Shown here one piece after another: positions 1,810 to 16,208 of a stretch of 64,000 bases of DNA; the first letter of the stretch is position 1, and every line of letters starts with the position of its first letter. The translations under genes and the position numbers were made by a program. Origin of the DNA: Ectothiorhodospira shaposhnikovii (GTDB lineage Bacteria > Pseudomonadota > Gammaproteobacteria > Ectothiorhodospirales > Ectothiorhodospiraceae); assembly GCF_022227765.1 (NCBI RefSeq), contig NZ_JAJMLZ010000009.1, forward strand, positions 1 to 64,000, written 5' to 3'. The notes beneath the pieces are model-generated. The model saw only the letters and a list, made by a program, of their open reading frames with translations. It ran no database searches and was not told where the DNA came from.

Positions 1810-3714
1810 TCAGGCAATCAGCTGTCGTTCCCGCAGCAACTCGATTACCGCATCGGCTGCCTCTTCCTGGCTCAGGCGGATGGTATCAAGACGAAGATCG
1901 GGATCTTCCGGCGCTTCATAGGCGGAATCGATACCGGTGAAGTTCTTCAGCACACCACGCCGGGCTTTCTTGTAGAGCCCCTTCGGATCACGCGCTTCCG
2001 CCACATCCAGCGGGGTATCCACAAAGATCTCGATGAATTCCCCCTCTTGCATCAGCTCACGGGCCATCCGGCGTTCGCTGCGGAAGGGCGAGATGAACGC
2101 CGTCAGCACGATCAAACCGGCATCCACCATCAGCTTGGCCACTTCCGCCACCCGCCGGATATTCTCGACACGATCGGCGTCCGTGAAGCCCAGATCACGA
2201 TTGAGACCATGACGCACATTATCGCCATCCAGCAGATAGGTGTGCTGACCAGCGGCATGGAGCTTCTTCTCCACCAGATTAGCGATGGTCGATTTGCCAG
2301 CCCCGGAAAGACCGGTGAACCAAAGCACCGCAGGCTTCTGACCCTTGGCCAGCGCCCGGGCCTGCTTGTCGATATCCACGTGTTGCATATGGATGTTCTG
2401 GCTGCGGCGCAGGGCAAAATGCAACATCCCCGCCCCCACGGTGTTGTGGCTCATCCGATCGATCAGGATGAAACCGCCCGTATCCGGACTATCACGATAG
2501 GCATCGAAAGCCACCGGTTTGCCCAGACTCAGAGTACAGACACCAATACCGTTCAGGTCGAGCTGTTTGGCTGCGGTATGCTCCAGGGTGTTGACGTTGA
2601 CCTGGTACTTGATATCGGAAACGGTGGCCGAAACGGTCTGAGTACCCAGTTTCATCAGGTAAGGACGCCCCGGCAACAATGGCTGATCGTGCATCCACAC
2701 CAGCGTGGTCTCGAACTGGTCGGCGGTTTCGGCGGGTTGATCAACACCGGAAATCACATCACCACGGGAAATATCGATCTCATCTTCCAACAACACAGTC
2801 ACCGACTGCCCGGCAATGGCCTGCTCCAGATCGCCATCGTGGGTATAAATCCGCCGGACCCGGCTGGTTTTGCCAGAGGGCTGGACACGAATGGCATCCC
2901 CCGGCCTCACGGTACCGGCGGCAATCATCCCGGCAAACCCACGAAAGTCCAGATTGGGACGGTTGACCCACTGCACCGGCATGCGAAACGGCAAACGCTG
3001 CAGACGGGCCTCGTCCACTTCCACGGACTCCAGATAGCCCATCAGGGTCGGGCCGTGATACCAGGGCATATGCCCACCATGCTCGATCACGTTGTCGCCC
3101 TTGAGCGCCGACATCGGAATAAAGGTGATGTCCTCCAGGCCCAGTTGCCCGGCAAACTCACGATATTGCTCGGCAATCTCCTCGAAACGCGCCTTCGAAT
3201 ACTCCACCAGATCCATCTTGTTGATGGCCACCACGATATGGCGGATGCCGATCAGCGACATCAAAAAGCTGTGGCGACGGGTCTGGGTCAGGATACCGTG
3301 GCGCGCATCGACCATCAGGATGGCGGCATCCGCGGTGGAAGCGCCGGTCACCATATTACGGGTGTACTGCTCATGCCCTGGCGTGTCGGCGACGATGAAC
3401 TTACGCTTGTCGGTAGAGAAAAAACGATAAGCCACATCAATGGTGATGCCCTGCTCCCGCTCGGCGGCCAGGCCATCAACCAGCAATGCAAAATCCACCT
3501 CATTGCCCTGGGTACCATACTTTTTGGAATCCGCCTCAATGGCGGCCAGTTGATCCTCGAACAACAGTTTGGACTCAAACAGCAAACGCCCGATCAGGGT
3601 GCTCTTACCGTCGTCAACACTGCCGCAGGTAATGAAGCGCAATAAACCCTTGCGCTCGTGAGCCTTCAAGTAGGCTTCGATATCGTCGGCGATCATGTCG
3701 GATGCGTGAGCCAT
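1810..3714 (-). CDS. cysNC: Bifunctional sulfate adenylyltransferase subunit 1 / APS kinase (CysN-CysC fusion)
   Basis: This 634-residue fusion makes PAPS from sulfate together with CysD. Residues 25-440 are the GTPase subunit: P-loop GSVDDGKST at 31-39, [11 protein letters not shown] at 110-120 and NKMDLV at 165-170. Residues 450-634 are APS kinase, with GLSGAGKST at 468-476, [15 protein letters not shown] and the likely phospho-acceptor Ser 542 in SPFRSERR. This is the NodQ-type architecture, known from PAPS supply for sulfated Nod factors as well as from assimilation. It overlaps the cysD stop by one base, so the two are co-translated. No cysH or cysIJ lies in the window, and two sulfotransferases lie nearby, which suggests PAPS for sulfation; that last step is inference. 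Confidence 0.96.
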
Positions 3715-4616
3715 CAGAAATACCCCTCCTGCTTTTTCTTTTCCATGGATGCGGCACTGTCATGGTCGATGACACGTCCCTGGCGTTCGGAAGTCCGGGT
3801 CAGGAGCATTTCCTGGATGATGGCTGGCAAGGTATCGGCCTCGGACTCAATGGCACCGGTGAGCGGGTAGCAGCCCAGGGTGCGGAACCGGACCTTGCGC
3901 ATCATGGGCACCTCACCCGGCGCCAACGGCATGCGCCCGTCATCCACCATGATCAGGGTGCCGTCGCGCTCCACCACCGGGCGCTCGGCGGCATAGTAGA
4001 GGGGTACAATCGGGATATTCTGCAAGTAGATGTACTGCCAGATATCCAACTCTGTCCAGTTGGAAAGCGGAAAGACGCGGATGGACTCTCCCTTGTGCTT
4101 ACGGGCATTGTAAAGACGCCACAACTCCGGGCGCTGGTTCTTGGGGTCCCAACGATGCTGGGCGGTGCGGAAGGAAAAGACCCTCTCCTTGGCACGGGAC
4201 TTCTCCTCATCCCGCCGCGCCCCACCAAAAGCGGCATCAAAACCGTACTGATCCAACGCCTGCTTGAGGCCTTCGGTTTTCATCACATCGGTGTGGATGG
4301 CGGAGCCGTGGGTGAACGGATTGATATCCTTCTCCACCCCGTCCGGGTTGATATGCACCAACAGATCCATGCCCATCTCCCGGGCCATCTTGTCGCGAAA
4401 TTCATACATGGCGCGGAATTTCCAACGGGTGTCCACATGCAGCAACGGAAACGGCGGTGGGGCCGGAGAAAACGCCTTGCGCGCCAGGTGCAGCATCACC
4501 GCGCTGTCCTTGCCCACCGAATAGAGCATCACCGGATTCTCGGTCTCGGCGACCACCTCGCGCATGATCTGGATACTCTCGGCTTCCAGTTTCTGTAAAT
4601 GGGTGAGTGACGTCAT
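3714..4616 (-). CDS. cysD: Sulfate adenylyltransferase subunit 2
   Basis: This 300-residue protein catalyses formation of adenylyl sulfate from ATP and sulfate, with CysN supplying GTP-driven activation. The PP-loop YSVGKDSAV at 32-40 marks the ATP pyrophosphatase fold. The length and the C-terminal tail with [26 protein letters not shown] sequence are normal for the family. Its ATG lies inside the stop of the upstream HTH gene (ATGA), so the three genes form one operon: HTH protein, cysD, cysNC. Confidence 0.97.
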
Positions 4617-15700: not shown

Positions 15701-16208
15701 AAAAGCGTGCGGGCAGAACCGACAGCGGCAAGCTGTGGATTTTGGCCCAAGCAGCCAGTGAGGGGGTGCGCCCTTCGGCCTTGCCATGCCGCCGATAATG
15801 GGCTTCCGCCTGGGCCTGGGTGGTAACACCGTTGGTTTTAAGGTCGGGGTACAGAGTCAGATAGAAGTCTGCATCTACCTCTGTGGGCGCGTCAGGTTCT
15901 GTGGTTGGGGGCTTGGAGGCCAATTGCGGATCCCCCGCTGCGTGAGAAGCCGAGGCGAAGCGCCCTTCCTGATAACCATGGGTATGCCAGTGCTGGATCA
16001 GTGCCTGATCTGTCAGTCCCTCCAGATCTGGGTAGGTATCTCTATAGTATTGCAAATCCAGATGGATCCTATGGGACGGCCCTTTGCGATCACCATGACA
16101 GTCGACCTGATGGCTGAAGGGTCCAACGATGCTTTTCCTTCTCAAAAAATTAGAAATCTTCCTTTTTTTCATACCGTTCGAACCCATCAGTTTCAATTTC
16201 CTCATCAT
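12792..16208 (-). CDS. Large multidomain glycosyltransferase (two GT-B units, TPR, N-terminal YPDL repeats)
   Basis: The 1138-residue product begins with two copies of a short repeat (about 49-83 and 111-147) with the pattern YPDL...H...HG..EGR, known at the N-termini of many surface-polysaccharide transferases. Residues about 205-320 look like TPR helices. A first GT-B-like region (about 395-735) has WFEAACLGVPSIVSG. A second GT4 unit (about 743-1138) has FFPPQSIGGATRVV and the C-terminal E-x7-E region ESFGLVTREAAACG. Two ATGs adjoin at the start, and no strong Shine-Dalgarno decides. It heads the operon with sulfotransferase and fkbM, so it probably builds the backbone that they decorate. 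Confidence 0.88.
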   Translation of the reverse strand: MMRKLKLMGSNGMKKRKISNFLRRKSIVGPFSHQVDCHGDRKGPSHRIHLDLQYYRDTYPDLEGLTDQALIQHWHTHGYQEGRFASASHAAGDPQLASKPPTTEPDAPTEVDADFYLTLYPDLKTNGVTTQAQAEAHYRRHGKAEGRTPSLAAWAKIHSLPLSVLPARFSLREILERTAGRGVELDPQVVLDTFLGQNITPLALSDNDHDTHEAYLALAKHHLVKGNPEKGQALLKAALVFEQSAQALELLGNIHLDRQQYSLALRYYNLAATKPNAHCWVYLHRASCLVKLERHAEALESLMESRVRFPQFTHQLDRLDDVAEQIWASLYPRCMVYVDLEDRERLVEKVNHYARMLYRTYLPYFGGPASSDPLTIPALPPLGHLNVDKILIIGDYHVPQCVRYRITQKIEQLEAVGKTVTAIDWMELEQHPNALALHDIVIFYRVPAVPKIIKAIAQVNATGKLSLYEIDDLLFDPIYPPPIETYGGYVNLDTYRELTRGMAFFNAAARLCRQGIASTEPLRNRLAPLVIEQQCLLHRNGLDHLNRFCTQDNTLKQTIDIFYGSGTQAHNSDFIELALPAIERILSQHPKARLVVVGYLRLPKAFRVRFATQYRQLPPVKSVQGYWSLLEQADINLAVLHEDPINDCKSELKWFEAACLGVPSIVSGTANYQDVIEDGVDAFIASTSEAWYQALKQLTENAELRRTMACAAMERVQTAYSARVLGDDLVSQLAPMATPTTVRRKVALVNVFFPPQSIGGATRVVADNFKALRKHYHEDLDLCVFTADAECRTPHRMTVYHEQGVRVYRATTLWREHMDWHPKDPEIYKLFSEFLALEQPDMVHFHCVQRLTASVVEAARDAGIPYMVTVHDAWWISDFQFLVDHQGKVYPQGHPDPYEAIELPSGISLAESIERRHDLKELLHQAHKVLTVSHAFAEIYRQNGIREIEVIPNGISDDVPWAPKDTTYTDRVVCGHIGGMSEHKGYYLLKEAVLTTQPDHLEFLVVDHSKEEGYEQKSYWGKVPVTFIGRVNQERIVDLYRKIDVLFAPSTWPESFGLVTREAAACGCWVVASDMGGIGEDILEGVTGHVITTTPDSLRTLLNKIEKNTRRYKGQVNNAEVVPALQQTRQLAKLYFEN

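Follow-up and report, generated by a model that had tools for sequence, protein, structure and literature searches.

Genes of the locus

We analysed a 64,000-nucleotide stretch of DNA (the window; positions 1-64,000 of NZ_JAJMLZ010000009.1) from a genome of 3,340,068 bases in 39 contigs (G000), here treated as the purple sulfur bacterium Ectothiorhodospira vacuolata, in which a sequence-only reading had proposed a locus dedicated to making a sulfated glycan from locally supplied 3'-phosphoadenosine 5'-phosphosulfate (PAPS). Profile searches of the window's open reading frames (ORFs) found the genes named in that reading at the places it gave: cysD and cysNC, an FkbM-family methyltransferase, two large glycosyltransferases (GTs) and, further on, dTDP-rhamnose and KpsS-like genes (Table 1). 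CysNC joins the GTPase subunit of ATP sulfurylase to an adenosine 5'-phosphosulfate (APS) kinase, has intact motifs in both halves and is accompanied by CysD, as in the NodQ type; in rhizobia, the fused CysNC of NodPQ serves a Nod-factor sulfotransferase whose acceptor is a lipo-chitooligosaccharide. A gene missed in the earlier reading, encoding a helix-turn-helix (HTH) protein, overlaps cysD. The 'sulfate-type permease' of that reading is present, but is of DASS/CitMHS type with TrkA_C domains and scores 81.6 bits with TIGR00785, under the cut-off of 198.6. A second permease of this kind lies beyond the first dTDP-rhamnose genes and is 78% identical to a cysNC-adjacent gene in E. mobilis (G008). 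A SulP-family transporter was set aside as the sulfate importer of the locus because it adjoins a RuBisCO large-subunit gene; it is possibly a bicarbonate carrier.

Each of the two proposed sulfotransferases carries both PAPS motifs in an open frame, and the motifs are intact. Sulfotransferase B (MKAGTT and LRDPFERLWSHY) scores well above its Pfam cut-off, and its top chain in the PDB is a sulfotransferase (3rnl_A, E 2.4e-11). Sulfotransferase A (PKTAGTS and LRHPLQRLMSEY) lies slightly below the Pfam cut-off; its 5' motif and an R-x-P, RL-x-SEY core are invariant in three aligned sequences, itself and two homologues. A phmmer search of sulfotransferase A against the PDB gave no match up to E = 1, and its single-sequence AlphaFold model (mean predicted local distance difference test score, pLDDT, 34) was left unused. 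The dTDP-rhamnose genes form two sets (16468-19202 and within 23658-29541), the KpsS-like gene lying inside the second.

Table 1. Features of the window and related loci (window coordinates unless a locus code is given)
Feature	Position	Strand	Evidence or remark
AAA-ATPase/PDDEXK gene	135-1442		at contig start
PAPS cassette, a single transferred block	1810-7250		94.0% DNA identity to Thiorhodospira sibirica
cysNC, ATP sulfurylase GTPase subunit with fused APS kinase	1810-3714	-	NF004035 1068.6 bits, cut-off 715; PF01583, PF00009
cysD, ATP sulfurylase catalytic subunit	3714-4616	-	NF009214 562.5 bits, cut-off 413; SVGKDS motif
HTH protein gene, IS630-type transposase relative, 258 aa	4613-5389	-	NF033545 58.3 bits, cut-off 100; 4-bp overlap with cysD
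DASS/CitMHS permease with TrkA_C domains, candidate sulfate importer	5523-7250	+	PF03600 170 bits, PF02080
Tandem GT2 glycosyltransferase (GT2+GT2)	7265-9562	-	PF00535, two stretches
Sulfotransferase A (Sulfotransfer_2-like), C-terminal extension	9566-10528	-	PF03567 20.6 bits, just below cut-off 22; both PAPS motifs
Stretch between sulfotransferase A and FkbM, 570 bp	10529-11098		without ORF of 120 aa or more; GC 46.0% in 10001-12000
FkbM-family methyltransferase	11099-11935	-	PF05050 67.3 bits; TIGR01444 87.1 bits
Sulfotransferase B (Sulfotransfer_3)	11936-12802	-	PF13469 53.9 bits, cut-off 27
Tetratricopeptide repeat (TPR) and tandem GT4 glycosyltransferase, 1138 aa	12792-16208	-	PF00534, PF13692, TPR
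RmlA	16468-17352	-	PF00483
RmlC and RmlB	17581-19202	+	PF00908, PF16363
139-aa ORF	19271-19690		without Pfam match
MqsA-type antitoxin gene	19691-20305		PF15731
Second DASS/CitMHS permease with TrkA_C	20900-22666
GT, second RmlA and RmlC, KpsS-like, second RmlB, RmlD	22674-29541		probable link to island
KpsS-like	25234-26571	-	PF05159 290 bits; NF050054 403 bits, cut-off 600
SulP-family transporter	29548-31674
RuBisCO large-subunit gene	31981-33405
HTH-CysD fusion loci outside the family	L079 2872-4671; L081 8222-10000; L080, L083, L085, L086, L089, L133

A mobile cassette beside a shared island

We compared the locus with other genomes of its family, whose species names are ones we infer, apart from strain BSL-9 (G007) and Thioalkalivibrio sulfidiphilus ALJ17 (G012): E. 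marismortui (G001), E. shaposhnikovii (G002), E. magna (G003), E. lacustris (G004), E. haloalkaliphila (G006), E. mobilis, E. marina (G009) and Thiorhodospira sibirica (G013). From cysNC to the permease, the window is identical over 94.0% of 5443 columns to a T. sibirica locus (L064 8865-14304), the match ending exactly at the outer gene ends of the cassette. Average nucleotide identity to E. vacuolata is 69.9 for T. sibirica, 86.2 for E. magna and 76.8 for BSL-9 (PMC8877833, Table 2), so the cassette has moved between genera. E. magna aligns with it at 95% identity in two blocks and has lost most of the HTH gene. The permease also stands beside cysDNC in T. sibirica, E. magna, BSL-9, Modicisalibacter (with the HTH gene), Marinobacterium and Methyloversatilis (both with an HTH-CysD fusion, cysNC and cysQ), and lies in pieces in Halomonas sp. 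CUBES01, next to cysDNC and a sulfotransferase-like protein.

Among the 47 family genomes surveyed, CysD occurs in 12, as one copy in ten and as two in G000 and BSL-9. These two are also the genomes with the island: both have the GT4 enzyme, sulfotransferase A, the GT2 enzyme and the permease in the same order beside one of their cysDNC sets. A lack of conservation of this neighbourhood, named with the sequence-only reading as a refutation, is half borne out: cysDNC is widely kept, but the island adjoins it in only these two genomes. In BSL-9, the cysNC of the island is followed by cysQ, for PAP phosphatase (TIGR01331 285.6 bits, cut-off 228.8), and the strain's two CysNC copies are 96.2% identical to each other. 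The two sets of G000 have different affinities: in a CysNC tree, the window copy clusters with E. magna and T. sibirica (support 0.98), and the copy on contig C36 with E. shaposhnikovii and E. lacustris (support 1.0). These last two, its sister species, have the C36 type only, so the window copy looks like a later addition. At the C36 locus (L014 8250-15124), cysDNC is accompanied by an LPG-synthase-type membrane protein, a GT4 enzyme and a further sulfotransferase, which lies 3.4 kb downstream among glycosyltransferases; the order is repeated in E. shaposhnikovii, and in E. lacustris a similar arrangement places the GT4 gene and a sulfotransferase on the same side.

DNA identity between the window's island and BSL-9 is 84% over 7261-10708, 90% over 12937-16277 and 93% over 16446-19202. 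The intervening stretch, 10709-12936, has no match of 150 bases or more in the BSL-9 stretches compared; it holds FkbM and sulfotransferase B and is low in GC (46% and 51% in two 2-kb windows). BSL-9 has in the same slot (L016 8504-14572) two other sulfotransferases, the first 23% identical to sulfotransferase B, together with a transposase and a DegT aminotransferase. The slot has the look of an exchangeable modification cassette flanked by conserved sequence. We find the arrangement best explained by a horizontally moving PAPS-supply cassette that has come to adjoin a horizontally shared glycan-modification island.

The cassette may also carry its own regulator. The HTH protein resembles IS630 transposases in its N-terminal half, at a score under the family cut-off. 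In an alignment of eight sequences, none of them an IS630 enzyme, its C-terminal half has no invariant aspartate or glutamate such as the conserved DDE residues of these transposases. In an AlphaFold2 model (mean pLDDT 83.1, built from four sequences), the C-terminal half is RNase H-like; a Foldseek search against the PDB returned one match at E <0.001, TnsB (1.9e-4), and the other PDB matches shown were again to TnsB or to retroviral integrases, with low TM-scores to the query throughout (0.20-0.29). The gene stands with an open frame before cysD in five family genomes (G000, T. sibirica, the second BSL-9 copy, E. haloalkaliphila and E. marina) and as a remnant in E. magna. At 77 cysD loci outside the family it is fused in-frame to CysD in eight (Table 1), separate in one and undetected in 68, some of these being cut by contig ends. 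No description on point of an HTH-CysD fusion was found in the literature searched (titles and abstract openings). This protein may regulate the cysDNC operon, and the fusion would then offer a handle on the regulation of PAPS supply. More speculatively, and in our estimate less likely than not, a DNA-binding protein derived from a transposase, its catalytic residues presumably lost, that overlaps or is fused to CysD might allow ATP sulfurylase to report sulfate-activation status to its own promoter, giving a self-regulated cassette that passes between haloalkaliphile genera and is set beside islands with serotype-like sulfotransferase swapping.

APS kinase, sulfotransferases and the fate of PAPS

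The sequence-only reading held that the PAPS made here serves sulfation rather than assimilation. We examined this across the family, counting as sulfotransferases matches over the cut-off in PF13469, PF03567 or PF00685. The APS kinase domain PF01583 matches in 41 of the 47 genomes (over the Pfam cut-off in 38); we counted as strong the 29 genomes above 100 bits, leaving out 12 at 20-80 bits, among them G005 (79.6 bits), whose protein passes the adenylyl-sulfate kinase model NF004041 (135.6 bits, cut-off 127). The PAPS reductase CysH was counted from PF01507 matches of 516-519 nt and at least 195 bits, found in six genomes, all with APS kinase. The PF01507 matches dropped were those in E. magna, E. 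haloalkaliphila and T. sulfidiphilus (at most 22 bits, against a CysH model cut-off of 154), a DndC protein in G015, two in G024 and one in G034; that of G058 is a CysD (NF003587 336.6 bits, cut-off 195), which brings the genomes with CysD to 12.

Strong APS kinase occurs without CysH in 23 of the 29 genomes, and 21 of those 23 have a sulfotransferase. Overall, 27 genomes have both enzymes, two the kinase only, ten a sulfotransferase only and eight neither (Fisher p = 0.0037); restricting the table to the 38 genomes with completeness of 90% or more gives 24, 2, 6 and 6 (p = 0.0066). Of the three families, PF03567 alone shows a clear link with APS kinase (p = 0.0001; p = 0.057 in genus g3). APS kinase and sulfotransferase genes also lie close together more often than expected: in eight of 28 genomes they stand no more than 10 kb apart, against 0.46 expected, a count reached in 0 of 20,000 simulations. 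This count takes the 27 genomes with both plus G005 (7 of 27 without it) and excludes G035 and G061, which have the kinase and no sulfotransferase. The 10-kb limit was set post hoc, with G017 and one of the two cases in T. sulfidiphilus at 9.7-9.9 kb; one linkage is inherited in common by G000, E. shaposhnikovii and E. lacustris, and another by G000 and BSL-9, so that independent cases number about six, and both the association and the linkage tests are uncorrected for relatedness. The clearest case is G058 (L306 1-4273), where cysD, cysN, a sulfotransferase and cysC are consecutive. Within G000, random placement of its four sulfotransferase matches puts one within 5 kb of each of its two cysDNC loci in 0.00017 of simulations, a limit picked after the distances were known.

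These patterns tie APS kinase in the family mostly to sulfotransferases and not to PAPS reductase, and lend weight to the proposal that the extra cysDNC beside the island supplies sulfation. SoxZ, present in 44 of the 47 genomes including G000, makes sulfur oxidation, as earlier proposed for this organism, credible. Sulfur oxidisers end with excess sulfate, which many of them leave unreduced in biosynthesis, and the presence of PAPS in such organisms points to sulfation. ATP sulfurylase running backwards in sulfur oxidation was considered as another role, but a fused APS kinase would fit activation better. We regard a PAPS cassette joined to a sulfotransferase island for a surface glycan as the best reading of the locus, and probably the right one. 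The permease would import sulfate, CysDN would make APS and the CysC domain would convert it to PAPS, from which sulfotransferases A and B would transfer sulfate to a glycan, probably rhamnose-containing and located at the surface, that the two large glycosyltransferases would build and FkbM methylate; the window's cysDNC would mainly feed this sulfation.

Several observations weigh against this reading. In genus g3 by itself, the association falls short of significance (12, 2, 9 and 7; p = 0.12), as it does for PF13469 alone (p = 0.23). Ten of the 37 sulfotransferase-bearing genomes are without a strong APS kinase (four of the ten being less than 90% complete), including the near-complete G036, whose ten sulfotransferase rows, at about eight places, leave its PAPS source unexplained. 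In E. magna and T. sibirica, the cassette has no sulfotransferase match on its contig. No cysQ was found among the scanned window ORFs, the contig ending 1.8 kb past cysNC, and no polymerase or export gene (kpsMTED, Wzx/Wzy) among the selected ORFs of 1-33.4 kb searched with Pfam, a genome-wide search not having been made. The checks proposed with the sequence-only reading, for cysH, cysIJ and further cysDN copies, also turned up assimilatory candidates in G000: one CysH of PAPS type (TIGR02057 282.3 bits, cut-off 254.2), with a single cysteine (ECGLH) and no CC pair; one two-domain sulfite/nitrite-reductase-type protein (PF01077), below the CysI cut-offs; and the C36 cysDNC set, whose CysNC is 75.9% identical to that of the window. 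PF01077 detected no DsrAB in G000; dsr genes are reported in strain BSL-9 (PMC5064118).

By gene content, then, PAPS can enter assimilation in G000, and the cassette might be a general assimilatory sulfate-activation operon that landed by chance beside an unrelated glycan island. This is favoured by the cysDNC sets of window type that have no sulfotransferase near them, in E. magna, T. sibirica, E. haloalkaliphila, E. marina and the second BSL-9 copy, and by the share of outside CysNC loci with a recognised sulfotransferase within about 10 kb: at least 10 of 80, the 80 being the best of 592 matches. That count is a lower bound, since the profiles derive from the family's own sequences and many of the loci are truncated at contig ends. 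Yet E. magna and T. sibirica have no CysH (the sole E. magna match to PF01507 is the weak one at 22 bits), so the cassette cannot serve PAPS reduction there, and a second cysDNC is found in both island genomes against none of the ten others with CysD. Table 1 of PMC10224512 gives E. shaposhnikovii a positive score for sulfate assimilation, and E. vacuolata, E. lacustris and E. magna a negative one. For E. vacuolata and E. lacustris, both of which have CysH, this physiology does not agree with gene content; E. magna has no CysH. Together these make a chance neighbour unlikely, while the second cysDNC and CysH mean that assimilation may proceed in the same cell as sulfation: for G000, 'dedicated' and 'rather than assimilation' are unproven.

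Sulfation could also be real and its acceptor something other than a capsule, such as a lipopolysaccharide O-antigen, a glycolipid or a glycosylated surface protein, for example flagellin. To our knowledge, TPR-GT4 and GT2-GT2 enzymes are not capsule-specific, and the selected window ORFs yielded no gene for polymerising or exporting a capsule or exopolysaccharide; against this stand the nearby KpsS-like and Rml genes, an arrangement also described for Cobetia (PMC11766843), and the mucous capsule reported for E. lacustris (PMC10224512). We consider a non-capsular acceptor a possibility to be taken seriously, if the lesser one. Least probable, in our judgement, is that the island is partly decayed and its sulfotransferases out of use: 570 bp without a long ORF adjoin sulfotransferase A, which falls under its Pfam cut-off and whose counterpart in BSL-9 is interrupted near the C-terminus by an in-frame stop or frame break, but the open frames and intact motifs of both window enzymes make this quite improbable.

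Published counterparts and neighbouring genes

The locus had been thought to be of a kind without description in such organisms. Its components—cysD, cysN and cysC, sulfotransferases with PAPS motifs, glycosyltransferases and nucleotide-sugar genes—match those of capsule clusters in Cobetia and Vibrio, and it therefore belongs to an already published kind. In Cobetia marina KMM 1449 (PMC11766843), one region holds cysNC, cysD, a permease (there a sulfate permease), a sulfotransferase, rhamnose genes, kpsS and glycosyltransferases; it makes a sulfated capsular polysaccharide with rhamnose 2-sulfate. That cluster further has kpsETMD, kpsC, a wcb operon and cysQ, none of them identified among the scanned window ORFs, and its product structure is solved in a bacterium that is not a sulfur oxidiser, whereas the E. 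vacuolata locus is known from genes alone. Vibrio sp. KMM 8419 (PMC11641403) likewise has second copies of cysC, cysN and cysD with sulfotransferases and rhamnose genes in a capsule cluster; it differs in its kpsDMET export genes, its solved structure and its lineage. The synechan xss cluster of the phototroph Synechocystis shares two sulfotransferases of distinct subfamilies and many glycosyltransferases, but belongs to a cyanobacterium with a Wzx/Wzy system, and 'PAPS' is absent from the main text of its report (PMC8205485).

No description of such a locus in Ectothiorhodospira or Thioalkalivibrio was found in the literature searched (titles and abstract openings, with subscription papers mostly outside its coverage). 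Judged from the genes, the components are ones familiar from other marine bacteria, but the set seems to have reached this genome recently from another genus. Should the proposed working be correct, many soda-lake sulfur bacteria (Ectothiorhodospira, Thioalkalivibrio) may bear sulfated glycans on their surface, and their sulfotransferases could be found by looking next to APS kinase.

Other genes in the window lie outside this scheme. Past the first dTDP-rhamnose set is an MqsA-type antitoxin gene; the short ORF before it gives no evident toxin partner. The AAA-ATPase/PDDEXK gene at the start of the contig has counterparts in BSL-9, where it occurs twice beyond cysDNC.

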